In this document: positions 636 through 23,264 of the stretch, one piece after another
Numbering within the stretch: position 1 is the first letter of the stretch
How the letters are laid out: every line of letters starts with the position of its first letter
NCBI GenBank assembly: GCA_028285215.1
Contig: JANQPZ010000156.1
Coordinates: 1 to 39,983, forward strand
Length of the DNA stretch: 39,983 nt
Reading direction: 5' to 3'
Source of the DNA: Rhodovibrionaceae bacterium
Lineage (GTDB): Bacteria > Pseudomonadota > Alphaproteobacteria > Kiloniellales > DSM-21159
The notes under the pieces: model-generated
Seen by the model: the letters and a program-made list of their open reading frames with translations, nothing else
Database searches by the model: none
Told to the model about the DNA's origin: nothing
Made by a program: the position numbers and the translations under genes

Positions 636-651
636 TGTTTCACGTGAAACA
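636..651. promoter_or_regulatory. parS: parS centromere site 1
   Basis: Perfect 16-bp palindrome TGTTTCACGTGAAACA, identical to the widely conserved bacterial parS consensus bound by ParB. It starts five bases after the mnmE stop codon and lies in the mnmE-mnmG gap, about 3.7 kb from parB. Confidence 0.95.
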
Positions 652-737
652 CAAGGCCACAGCCAGACCTGCCTCAAGCGACGTGATTGCACCCCCCGAT
701 CCTTGACCCGAGGCGGCATAAACCGCATTTTCCGCTG

Positions 738-2609
738 ATGCGACGCCTGGATATCATCGTGGTTGGAGGAGGGCACGCCGGCTGCGAAGCTGCCGCCGCG
801 GCGGCGCGGCTCGGCGCCCGAACCCTGCTGATCACGCATCGGCAGGCGACCATCGGCGCGATGTCCTGCAATCCGGCCATCGGCGGCCTGGGCAAGGGAC
901 ATCTGGTTCGTGAGATCGATGCCCTGGACGGCCTCATGGGCCGGGCCATCGACCGGGCCGGCATTCAGTTCCGCCTGCTCAACCGGCGTAAGGGCCCGGC
1001 CGTACGCGGCCCCCGCGCCCAGGCCGACCGCAAGCTCTATCGCCAAGCGATCCAGGCCTTGTTGGCGGAACAGCCGAACCTCGAGCTTCGCGAAGCCGAA
1101 GTCGCAGACCTGCGCCTCGACGATGCCGGGCACTGCACCGGCGTGGTCACGGCTGAAGGCGAAGAGATCTCCGCCGCGGCCGTCGTCCTCACCACCGGCA
1201 CCTTTCTGAGAGGTCTGATTCATCGGGGCGAACTGCGGACGCCTGCCGGCAGGGTCGGGGAGGCGCCCTCCATCGGGCTTGCGCGAACCTTGGAACGCTT
1301 CGGGTTCGCCCTCGGTCGCCTAAAGACGGGAACGCCGCCTCGGCTGGACGGCCGGAGTATCGACTGGCAAGCCCTCACGCCTCAGCCGGGCGACGACCCG
1401 CCGCAACCCTTCTCCACTCTCACCAAGGCTATCACCGTCCCGCAGGTTGCTTGCCACATCACCCATACCAATAGGCAGGCTCACGATCTGATCCGGAACA
1501 ATCTTCACCGAGCACCGATCTACTCCGGCCAGATCGAGTCCACCGGCCCGCGCTACTGCCCATCGATCGAAGATAAGGTCGTCCGCTTTGCCGAGCGCGA
1601 TGCGCACCAGGTCTTTCTGGAGCCGGAAGGTCTCGACGACGATACGGTCTATCCGAACGGCATTTCCACCTCCTTGCCGGCTGAGGTGCAGGAAGCCTTT
1701 CTGAAGACCATGCGAGGCCTCGAGAGGGCGGTGGTCCTTCAGCATGGCTATGCGATCGAGTACGACCATGTCGATCCGCGCGAGCTGACACCCGGTCTGG
1801 AGACCCGGCGCCTCCCGGGTCTGTATCTCGCCGGTCAGATCAACGGCACGACGGGTTACGAGGAAGCAGCCGCACAGGGGCTGATCGCCGGCATCAATGC
1901 GGCTCTGGCCGCGGGCGGCAGCGACCAACCCTGGAGTCTGGATCGCGCGGAAGCCTACATCGGCGTGCTGATCGACGACTTGATCACGCGTGGCGTCACC
2001 GAGCCCTATCGCATGTTCACCAGTCGGGCCGAATACCGACTGAGCCTGCGCGCCGACAACGCCGATCAGCGCCTCACTCCGGCCGGAGTTGCGTTGGGCT
2101 GCGTGGCTGCGGAGCGGACCGCGGCCTTCCAAACCAAACTCCAAGCGCTCGAGGCCGCCCGAACGCTAACTCGGCAGCTTTCCGCGACGCCGGATCAGCT
2201 CGCGAAAGCGGGCTTCAAGATCAACCGGGACGGCGTGCGCCGCAGTGCGTTCGATCTGCTGCGCCATCCCGATATCGACATGCGGCAGCTCGCCGGCTAT
2301 TGGCCGGCGCTGGGCGCGGTGTCCCCGGAGATTGCCGAGCAGGTCGAAATCGACGCCCGCTACACGGGATACCTCGAACGACAGGAGGCCGACGTCCGCG
2401 CCTTTCGTCGCGACGAGGCCCTGGTGCTGCCCGATGATCTGGACTACGACCGGATCCAGGGACTTCGCCCGGAGATCCGCGAGAAACTGGCTGCGGGCCG
2501 CCCCCATACCCTCGGTGCCGCCGGGCGTATTTCCGGCGTAACGCCAGCCGCGCTGGTTGCCCTGCTCCAGTATGTCCGGCGAACGCCCCGGGAAGACACG
2601 GCGGCCTAG
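738..2609 (+). CDS. mnmG: tRNA U34 carboxymethylaminomethyl-modifying enzyme MnmG
   Basis: FAD-dependent partner of MnmE in wobble-uridine modification of tRNA. The protein opens with a Rossmann dinucleotide-binding motif (GGGHAGCEA, residues 10-18). It carries the family sequences CNPAIGG and KTGTPPR, the C-terminal half begins around the [14 protein letters not shown] segment, and it ends in the helical MnmE-binding region. I chose the ATG at 738, giving 623 residues, the usual family length. An in-frame TTG at 687 would add 17 residues without resemblance to the family. The spacing from mnmE (107 bases, with parS 1) and the shared direction suggest one operon with mnmE, rsmG, parA and parB. 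Confidence 0.96.
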
Positions 2610-2628
2610 CCGCATTCGCGGGCCGCTC

Positions 2629-2644
2629 TGTTTCACGTGAAACA
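2629..2644. promoter_or_regulatory. parS: parS centromere site 2
   Basis: Second perfect copy of the 16-bp palindrome TGTTTCACGTGAAACA, starting 19 bases after the mnmG stop codon in the mnmG-rsmG gap. Confidence 0.95.
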
Positions 2645-2721
2645 CGCCGGCCGCTCAGCGGCCTAACGCGGAAGGCGAGGCCGACTCTTCATGCAGCCTC
2701 CCGCCAGTCGCCCCCGTCTTC

Positions 2722-2779
2722 CCCGCTGTTCACAGCGGGTGATGAGCCGAACCCGACTTGTGAGGCGGCAAGAAGCCGC
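2722..2779. other. two small hairpins in the mnmG-rsmG leader
   Basis: CCCGCTG (2722-2728), loop TTCA, CAGCGGG (2733-2739) forms a perfect 7-bp stem. GCGGC (2765-2769), loop AAGAA, GCCGC (2775-2779) forms a second stem ending 14 bases before the rsmG start. Neither is followed by a T-run, so they are more likely leader structure than terminators. No function is known. Confidence 0.4.
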
Positions 2780-2793
2780 GTAAGACCTGCGAC

Positions 2794-3426
2794 ATGACTG
2801 CCGCTCTGCACAGCCAGGCCTTCGGACCGGAAGACTTTCTGTCCGAGACCGGTGTTTCACGTGAAACACTGGGCCGGCTGCAGATCTATGCGGATCTGCT
2901 GGCGAGGTGGAATCGGGCGATCAATCTGGTAGGTCCGGCGACACTTTCCGATCTCTGGCGCCGGCACATGCTGGACAGTGCGCAGCTGATACCGCTGCTG
3001 CCGACACGAGACCTGCTCACCCTTGCCGACCTTGGGAGCGGCGCAGGGTTTCCCGGCCTCGTGCTCGCGCTCTGCAATGTCGGTGAGGTCCACCTCATCG
3101 AGTCCGATCAAAAGAAGACAACCTTCTTGCGTGAGGTCCTGCGCGAAACGTCCACTGCGGCCACGATTCACTGCGAGCGGATCGAGAGCATCTCCGATCT
3201 GCAGGTCGACGTTGTCACAGCCCGAGCGCTGGCCCCGCTCGCCGAGCTGGTCGCCTACGCGGCACCGCTGATGAAACCGGACGGTCTCTGTCTTTTCCTG
3301 AAAGGCCAGGGGATCGCAGACGAATTGACCCGGCTACCGAAGGCCCTGCAAGATAAATGCGACCGCATCCCGAGTCGAAGTGACTTGAGTGGATGCGTCC
3401 TACGGCTAGAGGGACCCCTGCCGTGA
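2794..3426 (+). CDS. rsmG: 16S rRNA (guanine-527 N7)-methyltransferase RsmG
   Basis: SAM-dependent enzyme that methylates G527 of 16S rRNA on the 30S subunit. It has 210 residues, normal for RsmG. The SAM-binding loop is seen at residues 79-88 (ADLGSGAGFPG region), followed by the acidic end of the next strand (LIESDQKK). The ATG at 2794 opens a frame with the typical N-terminal helix. Residues 20-25 (GVSRET) are encoded by a perfect parS palindrome, so this stretch is under both coding and DNA-binding constraint. The stop overlaps the parA start by four bases (GTGA), implying translational coupling. Confidence 0.95.
   Translation: MTAALHSQAFGPEDFLSETGVSRETLGRLQIYADLLARWNRAINLVGPATLSDLWRRHMLDSAQLIPLLPTRDLLTLADLGSGAGFPGLVLALCNVGEVHLIESDQKKTTFLREVLRETSTAATIHCERIESISDLQVDVVTARALAPLAELVAYAAPLMKPDGLCLFLKGQGIADELTRLPKALQDKCDRIPSRSDLSGCVLRLEGPLP
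2853..2868. promoter_or_regulatory. parS: parS centromere site 3, inside rsmG
   Basis: Third perfect TGTTTCACGTGAAACA palindrome, lying wholly inside the rsmG reading frame (third base of codon 20 to codon 25, read as V-S-R-E-T). All three copies are identical over 16 bases. Confidence 0.95.
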
Positions 3427-4265
3427 ACCTACAAGATATCGAGAATCTTACGTCGAGGGCGCCCCATGACGGCCCCCGTGTCTTGGCCATCGCCAACCAG
3501 AAGGGCGGGGTCGGCAAAACCACCACGGCCGTAAATCTGGCCACCGCGCTCGCCGCCTGCGGCAAGCGGGTGCTGATTATCGACCTGGATCCGCAAGGCA
3601 ACGCCTCGACCGGAGTCGGGCTCGACTGGCGCCGCCGCGGCCCAACCATCTACGAGACACTGCTGGGCGCGACGTCTCTTCGAGACTGCATCGTCGACAC
3701 GCCGGTCCCGAACATGTCGATCGTTCCTTCGTCGGTGGATCTCTCCGGCGCCGAGATCGAGCTGGTGGCCGCGGATCGGCGCGACACGCGCCTGCAGGAA
3801 GCCCTGCAGCAGGAGCGAGAACGCTGGGACTATGTCCTGATCGACTGCCCGCCGGCGCTCGGTCTGTTGACGGTCAACGCCTTGGTCGCTGCGGACGCCG
3901 TGCTGGTGCCGCTGCAGGCGGAGTTCTACGCACTCGAAGGTCTCAGCCACCTTCTGCGCACCATCGAGCGGGTCAGGCGGGCGCTCAACCCGACCCTGAC
4001 GCTGCAAGGGGTCGTTCTGACCATGTACGACCGCCGCAACAACCTCTGCGACCTCGTGGCCAAAGACGTCCGGAGCTACCTGGGCGACCGCGTCTACCGT
4101 ACGGTGATCCCACGCAACGTGCGTGTCTCGGAGGCGCCGAGCCACGGCAAGCCGGTTCTGCTGTACGATCTGAACTGTGCCGGCGCCCAAGCCTACGTTC
4201 ATCTCGCCGGGGAAATCCTGCGGCGCGAGGAAGGCGAGGGCGCGACGACTGCGCTGGCCTCATAG
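3423..4265 (+). CDS. parA: chromosome partitioning ATPase ParA (Soj)
   Basis: Deviant Walker-type ATPase that binds nucleoid DNA and moves ParB-parS complexes during origin segregation. From the GTG at 3423 the protein has 280 residues. The deviant Walker A motif KGGVGKTT has its signature and catalytic lysines at 27 and 32, Walker A-prime is IIDLDPQGNAS, Walker B is VLIDCPPALG, and the C-terminal segment RNVRVSEAPSHGKP is typical of chromosomal ParA. I chose GTG 3423 because it overlaps the rsmG stop as GTGA and has AGAGGG nine bases upstream; an in-frame ATG at 3393 lies inside rsmG. parB follows 36 bases later and three parS sites lie upstream, so this is the chromosomal par locus. Confidence 0.96.
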   Translation: MNLQDIENLTSRAPHDGPRVLAIANQKGGVGKTTTAVNLATALAACGKRVLIIDLDPQGNASTGVGLDWRRRGPTIYETLLGATSLRDCIVDTPVPNMSIVPSSVDLSGAEIELVAADRRDTRLQEALQQERERWDYVLIDCPPALGLLTVNALVAADAVLVPLQAEFYALEGLSHLLRTIERVRRALNPTLTLQGVVLTMYDRRNNLCDLVAKDVRSYLGDRVYRTVIPRNVRVSEAPSHGKPVLLYDLNCAGAQAYVHLAGEILRREEGEGATTALAS

Positions 4266-4301
4266 ACGGCTGCGCCAAAAACCAAGACCAGGGAGAGCGC
4301 C

Positions 4302-5294
4302 GTGAGCGACACGCCGCCCGGACCTTCAGGCTCCGACAAACGCACGAATCTCGGGCGCGGCCTCGCGGCCTTGCTCGGTGAAGAGGCCGACGACTACGAA
4401 AACCTGGACAAACTGCGCTCCAGCAAACAGGTCCCGATTGCGCGCCTCCATCCGAGCCGCGTTCAACCACGCACGCGCTTCGACGAAGAACCGCTGGACT
4501 CGCTGACCGCATCGATCCGGGAACAGGGAATCCTGCAGCCGATTCTCGTGCGACGCCATCCCGACCGGCCGAGCGACTTCGAAATCGTTGCCGGCGAGCG
4601 ACGCTGGCGTGCCGCCCAGAAAGCGCAACTCCACGAAGTTCCGGTCGTCATCCGCGAGTTGGACGACTCAACGGCACTGGAACTGGCCATCGTCGAGAAT
4701 GTCCAGCGCCAAGACCTGAATCCTCTGGAGGAGGCCGAAGGGTATCGGCGCCTGATGGAGGAGTTCAATCACAGCCAGGAAGAGCTGGCCCGGCTGATCG
4801 GCAAGTCGCGGCCGCACATCGCCAACACCTTGCGGCTGCTCAACTTGCCGGAGGGCGTCCGCAGTTACCTCGAAGACGGGCGCCTGTCCGCGGGGCATGG
4901 CCGAGCCCTGCTGGGCTCGGCAGAGCCGGAAAGCCTGGCAGCACGGGTGGCGGAGAAGGGCCTGTCCGTCCGCGAGACCGAGAGACTGGCCGGCGAGACC
5001 AAGGCATCGTCCCCCAAACAGCGTTCGTCGGGGGGTGCAAGGCCCCAGGAAAAGGATGCCGACACCCTGGCTCTGGAACGCGACCTCTCGACCATGCTGG
5101 GTCTGCGCGTGACGATTGACCTGCGAGGGCAGGGGGGCACGCTGGGGATCCACTACAATACGCTGGAACAGCTCGACGATGTGCTGCACCGGCTCAGCCA
5201 GTCCGAGGCGCCACACGAGGAGCTGCCGCTCGAAGACAGCCCGGAAGCCGAAGGGACCGATCAGAAGCCGGGCGAGGAGACGCAAGAGGCGTAG
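4302..5294 (+). CDS. parB: chromosome partitioning protein ParB (Spo0J)
   Basis: ParB loads onto parS and spreads as a CTP-dependent sliding clamp to form the segregation complex. It has 330 residues. The N-terminal segment NLGRGLAALLGE (16-27) is the usual ParA-stimulating region. The CTP-binding domain contains GERRWRA (98-104) and ENVQRQDLNPLEEA (132 onward). The helix-turn-helix follows (SQEELARLIGKSRPHIANTLRLL), and the C-terminal dimerisation domain spans about 245-300. The GTG start at 4302 has AGGGAGAG upstream. It is the last gene of the rightward block; the next gene is convergent. Confidence 0.96.
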   Translation: MSDTPPGPSGSDKRTNLGRGLAALLGEEADDYENLDKLRSSKQVPIARLHPSRVQPRTRFDEEPLDSLTASIREQGILQPILVRRHPDRPSDFEIVAGERRWRAAQKAQLHEVPVVIRELDDSTALELAIVENVQRQDLNPLEEAEGYRRLMEEFNHSQEELARLIGKSRPHIANTLRLLNLPEGVRSYLEDGRLSAGHGRALLGSAEPESLAARVAEKGLSVRETERLAGETKASSPKQRSSGGARPQEKDADTLALERDLSTMLGLRVTIDLRGQGGTLGIHYNTLEQLDDVLHRLSQSEAPHEELPLEDSPEAEGTDQKPGEETQEA

Positions 5295-14039: not shown

Positions 14040-15110
14040 CTAGCTAGGCCGCGATCGTATGATGTCGAGAAGCTTTGCGACATGCTCCGGCGGGGTCTGC
14101 GGCACAATGCCATGGCCCAGGTTGAACACGAAGGGGCCGCCGGACAGGCGAGTCACAATGTCGTCCGCCGCTGCTTCCAGGGCTTCGCCACCGGCAACGA
14201 GAAGAATCGGGTCGAGATTGCCTTGGACCGTTACGCGCGATTGCAATTCTTTCGCGGCCCACGACAAAGGTACGGTCGTATCCAGAGACAAGCCGTCCGC
14301 ACCAGCCTCTGCAGCGACCGCAGGGTAAAGCGGGCCGGCACCGCGGGGAAAGAGAATGACCGGGACGGCTGGATGCTGTGCCTTCACCCGGCGCACGATT
14401 GCCGCCATGGGATCTAGACACCAGCGCCGAAAGGCGGTTTCCGGCCACACACCTGCCCAGGAATCGAAAACCTGCAGAGTTTCGGCGCCAGCCTCGACCT
14501 GGCGGCAAAGATATCGGCTCGTCGCCTCGATCAGCAGATCGATCAGGCGTTGGAAGCCTTCCGGATCCCCATAAGCCCATGTCTTGGCTTTCTGGAAATC
14601 TTTGGAACTTCCACCTTCGATCATGTAGCTGGCGACGGTCCAAGGCGCACCGGCAAAGCCGATCAGGGTCGTCTCCTGCGGCAGGGCGGTCGACAAGCGG
14701 TCGACCGTTTCATAGACCGGCTCCAACCTGTCGTGCAGCGCTTCAAGCGAGAGACGCCGCAAGTCTGCGCTGTCCGCGAGAGCCTCCAGCTTCGGGCCTT
14801 CGCCTTCCTGGAACCAGACTTTCTGGCCCAGCGCATGTGGTATGACGAGAATGTCCGAGAAGAGGATGGCAGCGTCGAACCCGTAACGGCGGATGGGTTG
14901 CAAGGTCACTTCCGTGGCCAGATCGGGCGTAAAACAGAGTTGCAGAAAACCCCCGGCCTTTTGACGGGTTTCCCGGTACTCCGGCAGGTAGCGTCCGGCC
15001 TGACGCATCAGCCAAACCGGTGGAACCGAGAGTGTTTCGCCGGCCAGAGCGCGCAGCAAAAGCTTCTTCGGTTTCGCGGTTTCGTTGGCAGTTCGGCTGG
15101 GCTGCGACAC
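14040..15110 (-). CDS. hemE: uroporphyrinogen decarboxylase
   Basis: Decarboxylates uroporphyrinogen III to coproporphyrinogen III. It has 356 residues, a normal length. Signature sequences are [37 protein letters not shown] (with the catalytic aspartate), [17 protein letters not shown], and [16 protein letters not shown] at the C-terminus. The start is GTG at 15110 with TGAGGA nine bases upstream. It is the first gene leftward of the probable origin, matching the hemE position beside the origins of Caulobacter and Rickettsia. Confidence 0.97.
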
Positions 15111-15532
15111 GGAAGATGATCCTCAACGGTTCGGCTCGCTCCCCCTCCTATCCCACAAAGATATTTTTCTTAAAAGATATTGAAGATGTTGTAGGGGACT
15201 GTGAATCCTGGGGACGCAAGCCTATCCGGCCTCCTGTCCACATATCCTTTTGCGCAATGGTACAGCTTGTCGATATGTCGATAAGCCTCGTGGTTGCCGC
15301 AGCAAAACTGGGGTGGGTGGACCTGCGAATCAGGTGGATAATGGGGAGTTCTCTTGGATGACGAGTCTTGACGCGGAGTCGTCCCGAGGTAAGGGAGGCA
15401 ACCGTCCTTTGATGACAGAGTTCTGCAGTTTTTTCGGCGAAGCGGAATGAAATATTTGCAGATTACCAAGGCGGCCGGGTTATCCCCGCTCTCATCGGGT
15501 TTGCACAGCCTGCTTCAGGACTCGAAAACGAC
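15111..15532. other. oriC: probable chromosomal replication origin (oriC), hemE-PPSR intergenic region
   Basis: A 422-base gap between divergent hemE and the DUF299/PPSR gene, the same neighbours that flank the mapped Caulobacter origin (hemE/RP001). Bases 15157-15191 are 28 of 35 A/T in otherwise GC-rich DNA and include ATATTTTTCTTAAAAGATAT, a candidate unwinding element. DnaA-box-like 9-mers, compared with TTATCCACA, are TTATCCACC at 15333-15341 (minus, 8/9), TTATCGACA at 15276-15284 (minus, 8/9), ATATCGACA at 15268-15276 (minus, 7/9), CTGTCCACA at 15234-15242 (plus, 7/9) and TTATCCCCG at 15480-15488 (plus, 7/9). No perfect box is present. Origin function is inferred from synteny plus these motifs. 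Confidence 0.75.
15268..15283. repeat. tandem 8-bp repeat TGTCGATA x2 in the origin region
   Basis: Two direct copies of TGTCGATA lie head to tail. Each resembles the complement of a DnaA box, so this may be a closely spaced DnaA binding pair. Confidence 0.5.
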
Positions 15533-16429
15533 GTGACCGACAGCGCCGACCCTTTGCGAATTGCCGACGGCTTGGCCGAGACCGACGCCGCGGCGGCCGT
15601 CGTGGAGAAGCCTGGAAACCTCCACCTGGTGTCGGATGCCACCGGCGAGACGGTGAACTCGGTCGCGCGCGCCGTGCTTTCCCAGTTCCGCGATGTCGAA
15701 CCGGTCGAGCATGCCTGGACCCTCGTGCGCACGCGCGGCCACATGGACAAGGTCATTGCCGGTATCGAGGCCTTTCCCGGACCGGTGCTCTATACCTTGA
15801 TCAACGAGACTTTGCGTGGCCGCCTGACCGATGCTTGTCGGCGGATCGGCGTCCCTGCCATTTCCGTGCTCGATCCCGTCATGCATGCGCTCGTGTCCTA
15901 TTTCGATGTCGCAACGGTCGGGCGGCCCGGACTGCAGCACGAGATGGATGCGGAGTACTTCAGCCGTATCGAGGCTATGAACTTCGCCATGGCCCATGAC
16001 GACGGGCAGCAGCTGTCCGGTCTGCCGGAAGCCGACGTCGTTCTGACCGGCGTGTCTCGAACCTCCAAGACGCCGACGTGCATCTATCTTGCCAACCGCG
16101 GCATCCGTGCTGCCAATGTGCCGCTCGTACCGGGTGTTCCGGCGCCGGCCGAGCTCGTGGACCTCAAGGGACCGTTGGTTGTGGGTCTGACCAAGGATCC
16201 GATGCGCCTGGTTCAGGTGCGCAAGAACCGCCTGCGTTTGCTGACCGAGAGGGACGACGGATCGGCCTATGCCGATTTGGAAGCGGTCAAGCAGGAAGTG
16301 GCTGAAGCACGGCGCCTCTGCAGCAGCAAGGGCTGGCCGACGCTGGATGTCACACGCCGTTCGATCGAAGAAACGGCGGCGGCGATCATGACCCTGCTCG
16401 CCCGCCATCGGCGACAGGCCTCGCCGTGA
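15533..16429 (+). CDS. bifunctional PPDK/PEP synthase regulatory kinase-phosphorylase (DUF299/PPSR)
   Basis: The family switches pyruvate phosphate dikinase or PEP synthase on and off by ADP-dependent phosphorylation and Pi-dependent dephosphorylation. The protein has 298 residues. The core begins near residue 28 (LHLVSDATGETVNSVARA), and the P-loop-like motif GVSRTSKTPT is intact near 172-181, followed by IYLANRG. About 25 N-terminal residues are variable. The start is GTG at 15533. It is the first gene rightward of the probable origin, equivalent to RP001 of Rickettsia. The stop overlaps the maf start as GTGA. Which target enzyme it controls cannot be told here. Confidence 0.93.
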   Translation: MTDSADPLRIADGLAETDAAAAVVEKPGNLHLVSDATGETVNSVARAVLSQFRDVEPVEHAWTLVRTRGHMDKVIAGIEAFPGPVLYTLINETLRGRLTDACRRIGVPAISVLDPVMHALVSYFDVATVGRPGLQHEMDAEYFSRIEAMNFAMAHDDGQQLSGLPEADVVLTGVSRTSKTPTCIYLANRGIRAANVPLVPGVPAPAELVDLKGPLVVGLTKDPMRLVQVRKNRLRLLTERDDGSAYADLEAVKQEVAEARRLCSSKGWPTLDVTRRSIEETAAAIMTLLARHRRQASP

Positions 16430-22376: not shown

Positions 22377-23264
22377 ATGGCAGCGCAGGACAAAGCAGTC
22401 GACGCAACAGTGCGTGACGACGGCGTGAGGCGGATTCCGCCGCGCCAGGCTGGCTGGTTGGGCCGTCTGCAGGACTTGATCGAGAACGCGACGACCCAAA
22501 AAATCATTGCCGTACTGATCGCACTCAACGCCGTCACTCTTGGCTTGGAAACCAGCGAGCGCGCGATGGCGGCGGCCGGCGAGGTGCTGCGGGTACTGGA
22601 CCGTACCCTGCTGTTGATCTTCACTGCAGAGATCCTGGCCAAGCTTCTGATTTACCGGACGCGCATCCACAAGGATCCCTGGAATGTCTTCGACATCCTG
22701 GTGATCGGCATCGCCTGGATGCCGGCGACCGGAAACCTCTCGGTCCTGCGGGCTCTTCGTATCCTGCGTGTGCTCCGCCTGATCTCGGCCGTGCCGTCCA
22801 TGCGCCGGGTCGTGACGGCTCTGCTCCACGCAATTCCCGGAATGGGTTCGATCGTCGCGCTGTTGGCGCTGGTCTACTACGTCTTCTCCGTGATGGCGAC
22901 GAAGCTGTTCGGGCCCGCCTTCCCCGAGTGGTTCGGGACCATCGGTGCTTCCGCCTATTCGTTGTTCCAGATCATGACGCTCGAATCCTGGTCGATGGGC
23001 ATTGTGCGGCCGGTCATGGAGATCTTTCCCTATGCCTGGGCCTTCTTCGTACCCTTCATTCTCGTAACCAGCTTCACCGTCCTGAACCTCTTCATCGGCA
23101 TCATCGTGGACGCCATGCAGAGCCAGCATCAGGCCGAAGCGGAAGAGGCTGCGGTTGCCGAGGACAAGGCGCGCGCCGCGGACAATGCACAGATCCTGGA
23201 GGAGCTTCGTGCCTTGCGCCGCGAGGTTGCCGATCTCAAACGGGACAGCGGTCTGTCGCCTTAG
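22377..23264 (+). CDS. voltage-gated sodium channel of the bacterial NaV (NaChBac/NavAb) family
   Basis: 295 residues with a one-domain six-helix channel layout: S1 about 42-57, S2 72-92, S3 103-117, S4 120-138 with arginines every third residue (R125, R128, R131, R134), S5 148-177, pore 189-206, S6 217-247. The selectivity filter TLESWS (201-206) has the glutamate ring of sodium-selective bacterial channels and TLESWSMGIVRP is nearly the NavAb sequence. The C-terminus (about 250-290) is charged and predicted to form the tetramer coiled coil. AAGGGA precedes the ATG. The TAG stop is the first three bases of a palindromic repeat. Probable homotetramer in the inner membrane; roles in motility or pH response are known only for relatives. 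Confidence 0.93.
   Translation: MAAQDKAVDATVRDDGVRRIPPRQAGWLGRLQDLIENATTQKIIAVLIALNAVTLGLETSERAMAAAGEVLRVLDRTLLLIFTAEILAKLLIYRTRIHKDPWNVFDILVIGIAWMPATGNLSVLRALRILRVLRLISAVPSMRRVVTALLHAIPGMGSIVALLALVYYVFSVMATKLFGPAFPEWFGTIGASAYSLFQIMTLESWSMGIVRPVMEIFPYAWAFFVPFILVTSFTVLNLFIGIIVDAMQSQHQAEAEEAAVAEDKARAADNAQILEELRALRREVADLKRDSGLSP

Follow-up and report, generated by a model that had tools for sequence, protein, structure and literature searches.

The window analysed here is a stretch of 39,983 nt from contig JANQPZ010000156.1 of a Rhodovibrionaceae bacterium MAG (GCA_028285215.1, 366 contigs). Within it, hemE (14040–15110, minus strand; TIGR01464, 423 bits) and a gene for a PPDK/PEP synthase (PEPS) regulator (15533–16429, plus strand; NF003742, 326 bits) diverge around an intergenic gap at 15111–15532, and both gene calls and family matches reproduce exactly the limits given for this gap in an earlier note on the same DNA. 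The regulator belongs to the family COG1806 (DUF299; "CC0001/RP001"). The gap measures 422 bp in the window and 363–796 bp in nearly all relatives, and the divergent hemE/COG1806 pair is kept in every same-order relative whose contig reaches far enough. The earlier note had linked this pair to the mapped Caulobacter origin and to the start of the Rickettsia genome; the pair borders the origin located by experiment in Caulobacter and the one predicted for Rickettsia (PMC1914354). To the left of the gap, mnmG, rsmG, parA and parB span positions 687–5294, with parA and parB at 3393–5294 (plus strand; Pfam ParB_N, HTH_ParB and AAA_31), and perfect parS sites are found at 636–651 (plus strand), 2629–2644 and 2853–2868; this is the par locus that had been placed 10–15 kb from the gap, and all three parS copies lie within that distance range. 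Elsewhere in the window, an open reading frame at 22377–23264 carries an Ion_trans domain of the voltage-gated type (138 bits).

The most AT-rich 35-mer, 15155–15189 (28/35, i.e., 80% AT), lies near hemE, as noted earlier, and is equalled by no other 35-mer in the 40-kb window; in other members of the order, too, the AT minimum is on the hemE side of the gap. When 9-mers were compared with TTATCCACA, allowing at most two mismatches, six sites matching at 7/9 or better were found in the gap (at 15117, 15234, 15268, 15276, 15333 and 15480), none of them perfect. The window as a whole holds 42 such 9-mers, corresponding to 0.44 expected per 422 bp (Poisson P ∼ 7e-6 for the six observed), and two of its three 8/9 sites fall in the gap (P ∼ 2e-4). 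Five of the six span 15234–15488 and are those previously counted as five box-like 9-mers, two at 8/9, spread over ∼250 bases, to which the site at 15117 is now added; the best being 8/9, the remark that the gap holds no perfect DnaA box also stands. In order, the five are CTGTCCACA at 15234–15242 (plus strand, 7/9); a head-to-tail pair on the minus strand at 15268–15284, ATATCGACA (7/9) and TTATCGACA (8/9, at 15276), 8 bp apart and conserved in two relatives (G001 and G002); TTATCCACC at 15333–15341 (minus strand, 8/9), followed by TGGGGA; and GTTATCCCCG at 15479–15488 (plus strand, 7/9 to the E. coli box), which is the most conserved box type of the lineage and sits in a 13-bp block, CGGGTTATCCCCG, that is invariant across three congeners. 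The gap is the densest DnaA-box cluster of the window. In ∼2.8 Mb sampled from two complete genomes, G001 (the sole complete congener) and G025 (a same-order genome in one contig), the respective hemE gaps rank second and third by box density. The sole denser cluster, in G001, was rejected as a DnaA-box cluster because it is a CRISPR array (L074, ∼1270–1900; C1, ∼3,081,850–3,082,500) whose ∼35-nt repeat (GTTTAGCCACTGAGGAATTGCGGTCCAGCGGCAAC) mimics boxes at two mismatches. Alignments of three congeners and, separately, of 29 order members showed that the AT stretch and the boxes are conserved across the order, one of the comparisons by which the earlier note had proposed that its reading be judged.

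The commonest 8-mer in 31 non-redundant gaps of the order is TTATCCCC, present in 24 (0.3 expected); GTTATCC occurs in 29 of the 31 (0.7 expected) and TTATCCAC in 15 (0.3 expected). Judged by these counts, the box core of the lineage is close to GTTATCC[C/A]C, which explains why no perfect E. coli box is present. Imperfect boxes are usual at alphaproteobacterial origins, as exemplified by the weak G- and W-boxes of Caulobacter (PMC4468827), and the W-box core TCCCCA occurs at 2.7 per kb in the order's gaps versus 0.28 per kb in the window. The CtrA site TTAA-N7-TTAA was found in none of the three congeners' gaps and in 1 of 33 gaps of the order, while the positive control, Caulobacterales, gave 4 of 4; CtrA sites belong to the Caulobacter type and are no general defining feature of alphaproteobacterial origins, most of which are without them (PMC4468827). 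Five GANTC (CcrM-type) sites lie at 15203, 15327, 15363, 15376 and 15519 (15203–15523 overall), and GANTC is enriched about twofold in the gaps of the order (150 versus 78 in shuffles). The three congeners largely share the stretch 15363–15384 (CTTGAC-N-TGGAGTC-N-TCCC), which may combine a −35 element of the regulator-gene promoter with a GANTC site.

The segment 15156–15217 is likely to be the opening module of the gap; its trinucleotide array and tandem boxes were overlooked in the earlier note. From the hemE side, it comprises an AT-rich cluster at 15156–15179, a probable DNA unwinding element (DUE) contained in the sole 80%-AT 35-mer of the window; five candidate DnaA-trios on the plus strand at 15180–15194, TTG AAG ATG TTG TAG (GAT GTT GTA GAA GTT when read 3′–5′); a 5-nt GC-rich spacer, gggac, at 15195–15199 (3–5 nt in most relatives); and two directly tandem weak boxes on the minus strand, box 1 at 15200–15208 (GGATTCACA, 6/9; TGTGAATCC in the alignment) and box 2 at 15209–15217, which contains the W-box core TCCCCA. 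The box 1 sequence CTGTGAAT recurs in 11 of the 31 gaps of the order (0.4 expected), and GGGGAT is the top conserved hexamer beside it. Box 1 includes the GANTC site at 15203–15207, and the genome encodes a candidate CcrM-type methylase (C357:5546–6541; N6_N4_Mtase and RAMA in one 409-aa frame), such that methylation could affect this box. All five triplets end in G, and in the three congeners this G never changes while the two bases before it do; five such triplets beside a box-like 9-mer occur only at 15180–15208 in the whole window. It should be noted that the array, with two mismatches to (TWG)x4, is by itself not significant (shuffle P = 0.07); what speaks for it is its conservation, its place in the gap and the boxes beside it. 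At the margin of the AT cluster that faces hemE, TATCCCACAAAGA (15149–15161) is invariant in the three congeners and contains no recognisable DnaA box.

Across relatives, 56 of 86 distinct gaps have (TWG)x4 with at most two mismatches on this strand; for the opposite strand the figure is 2 of 86, and for dinucleotide shuffles ∼8. The matches sit 27–186 nt from hemE, and the arrays keep the same strand, place and box order throughout the order and beyond. A box (at most three mismatches) with three or more T[ATG]G triplets no further than 16 bp away is present in 42 of the 86 gaps, compared with 0 when the reverse strand is read and 1.2 after mononucleotide shuffling; at three mismatches, the motif was not detected in the gaps of Caulobacterales (0/4) or Hyphomicrobiales (0/10). 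The layout of the Bacillus basal unwinding system (BUS), in which tandem boxes, a GC-rich spacer, G-phased trios and an AT cluster follow one another (PMC8287927), is thus seen, as a box, a spacer no longer than 16 bp and a trinucleotide array on the correct strand, at 15180–15208 and order-wide. The published trio rule asks for at least three consecutive trios with a middle adenine (3′-NAN-5′) beside a box mismatched at no more than two positions, and the window departs from it: counted 3′–5′ away from the box, the middle bases run A, T, T, A and T, and box 1 has three mismatches. Only 6 of 33 gaps of the order pass this rule, and because shuffled sequences often pass as well, it has no discriminating power here. 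At the middle position of its phased triplets, this order has T in 64, A in 24, G in 10 and C in 2 cases, and A is commonest in the other alphaproteobacterial gaps (unassigned and Parvibaculales; A 53, T 33); the difference between T and A is significant by Fisher's test (P = 8e-6), a value that is optimistic, since the triplets of related genomes are non-independent. That trios without a middle adenine might exist had already been suspected in the 2021 BUS paper (PMC8287927).

These middle bases also bear on the strongest of the alternatives, namely that the origin does lie here but that the array is either part of a T-rich DUE of the E. coli type (TT[A/G]T) or a chance periodicity of AT-rich DNA, with no DnaA-trio involved. 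Such a reading would accommodate the minority status of the middle adenine, the hallmark of published trios, as well as the weak statistics of the window's array taken alone; moreover, TTGT, a sequence similar to the E. coli ssDUE motif, is contained in TTGTTGTAG. It would not explain why G occupies each third base in all five triplets of all three congeners, and strand-specific, box-adjacent arrays throughout the order are not what a loose AT-rich element predicts. We therefore regard it as unlikely, although not negligible, and the two readings may perhaps describe one mechanism.

In B. subtilis, a filament starts from DnaA bound at a box and takes hold of two bases in every trio: Arg202/Glu228 read the G, and Asn187, identified by the 2023 structure as the reader of the middle base, reads the A; a T in the middle position impairs the protein (PMC10721633). 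Aligned with B. subtilis DnaA, the DnaA of the present genome has Glu at Glu183, Tyr at Asn187, Ile at Ile190, Leu at Ile193, Lys at Asn196, Lys at Arg202 and Glu at Glu228. Tyr, Lys and Glu at positions 187, 202 and 228 are shared by five genomes of the order (the present one and four others); position 187 is Asn in T. maritima and Gln in A. aeolicus. In a wider survey, carried out with a DNA pattern for the DnaA motif EKFMYxF rather than by protein alignment, 44 of the 77 alphaproteobacterial genomes sampled gave a match, which lay at dnaA in the cases that were checked, and the 88 genomes sampled from Pseudomonadota of other classes gave none. At the level of a sequence correlation, the residue that reads the middle base appears to differ where that base has drifted, and the Glu that reads the G appears to have stayed where the G has. 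This points, tentatively and with somewhat less than even confidence, to the possibility that many Alphaproteobacteria use a divergent trio, 3′-G[T/A/G]T-5′ (mostly GTT in this order), because Asn187 of DnaA has been replaced by Tyr, protein and motif having co-evolved. Tyr187 may well occur also in lineages in which the trios are invisible or mostly have A.

Turning to the location of the origin on the chromosome, the whole-chromosome skew minimum that the earlier note had proposed looking for in the gap was sought in relatives, the present genome being a MAG of 366 contigs. In the 4.18-Mb genome G025, 20-kb samples give a negative skew at nearly every point as far as 350 kb and a positive one from 370 kb onwards; the reverse switch comes near 2.55 Mb. 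A G minus C walk over the contiguous interval 310–470 kb has its minimum at 373,926, ∼55 bp beyond the hemE–COG1806 gap (∼373,392–373,871) and just inside hemE. The congener G001 has a weak skew, with a sharp maximum near 2.25 Mb and a broad minimum extending from ∼4.2 Mb to 0.3 Mb, so that it fits the hemE site (29 kb) without separating it from dnaA (84 kb), ∼54 kb away. A skew switch at the gap is hence clear in G025, and G001 is too flat to localise it. The terminus is marked in both genomes by GGGNAGGG (KOPS-like) octamers, whose strand preference flips near the skew maximum, at ∼2.25 Mb for G001 and 2.55 Mb for G025.

The inability of the G001 skew to part hemE from dnaA leaves some room for the proposal that the real origin is at or upstream of dnaA and that the hemE gap is a promoter region regulated by DnaA. 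The region upstream of dnaA in the present genome (L003:560–760) and in G002 indeed has a perfect box, TGTGGATAA, and a conserved second box. However, dnaA of G025 is at 497.9 kb, 124 kb from the skew minimum at hemE/COG1806, and the box cluster at dnaA is absent in G025 and G047, making an origin at dnaA very improbable. In L003:560–760, TGTGGATAA and GGTGGATTA lie together in a stretch conserved with G002, and these boxes probably serve autoregulation of DnaA. Least probable of all is that the 3-base periodicity is the trace of a short coding sequence: a mechanically called open reading frame on the plus strand (15020–15361) does span the array, but the triplets are out of its frame ([15180 − 15020] mod 3 = 1), the periodicity ends at the AT cluster and the box with no extension, and in relatives the array tracks the box and not a reading frame, and we rejected a coding remnant on these grounds.

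The flanking gene pair, the skew minimum of G025, the box cluster and the conserved AT stretch and boxes together lead us to read the gap very probably as the chromosomal oriC, on which DnaA would act through weak boxes and a tandem pair to open the array and the AT cluster; the earlier suggestion of a probable origin between hemE and the PPDK-regulator gene is strengthened by the same four lines of evidence. Binding of DnaA, unwinding and initiation are what the location, conservation, composition and element order, as read from the sequence, would predict. DnaA would occupy the weak boxes dispersed over the gap (GTTATCC[A/C]C type and the TTATCGACA pair) and the tandem pair at 15200–15217; from the latter, an ATP-DnaA filament would load onto one strand of the trinucleotide array (15180–15194) and open the array together with the AT cluster (15156–15179) on the hemE side for helicase loading. 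Unwinding of the basal, Bacillus type is probably the opening mechanism here and the most likely one we can name, given an anatomy in which boxes, spacer, G-phased triplets and AT cluster are present on the expected strand.

Among known systems, the Caulobacter crescentus Cori resembles the locus in its flanking genes and their divergence, a gap of 400–500 bp, the AT-rich region, the nearby par locus and GANTC sites, as well as in its weak DnaA boxes, the W-box TCCCCA and boxes that deviate from the E. coli consensus; the present gap differs in lacking a CtrA site and in having a trinucleotide array, which was undetected in the four Caulobacterales gaps. E. coli oriC (DUE and box R1) shares the T-rich strand beside a TGTGGATAA-oriented box, but it has 13-mer repeats and TT[A/G]T(T) motifs in place of G-phased triplets and another gene neighbourhood. 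The BUS of Bacillus subtilis (DnaA-boxes 6/7) has the same box order and strand, a short GC-rich spacer, G-phased trinucleotides and an AT cluster, whereas here T prevails over A in the middle of the trios, the boxes are weaker and position 187 of DnaA is Tyr rather than Asn. The Rickettsia prowazekii origin has the hemE/COG1806 flanking pair in common with the gap (PMC1914354), but its description is based on CtrA/IHF sites and its genome is much more AT-rich.

As an origin, the gap is ordinary, lies where expected and adds a new example to a well-known kind. What it contributes beyond this is a likely opening module with T-rich trios, apparently a variant of the motif known from Bacillus, and an origin code for a poorly studied order, composed of the GTTATCC[C/A]C core, tandem weak boxes and G-phased, T-middle triplets. 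If the proposed link between the middle base and DnaA is true, published trio searches that require a middle adenine would misread these origins. The coincidence of T-middle trios with a change at position 187 of DnaA makes the co-evolution of DnaA and origin opening directly testable.
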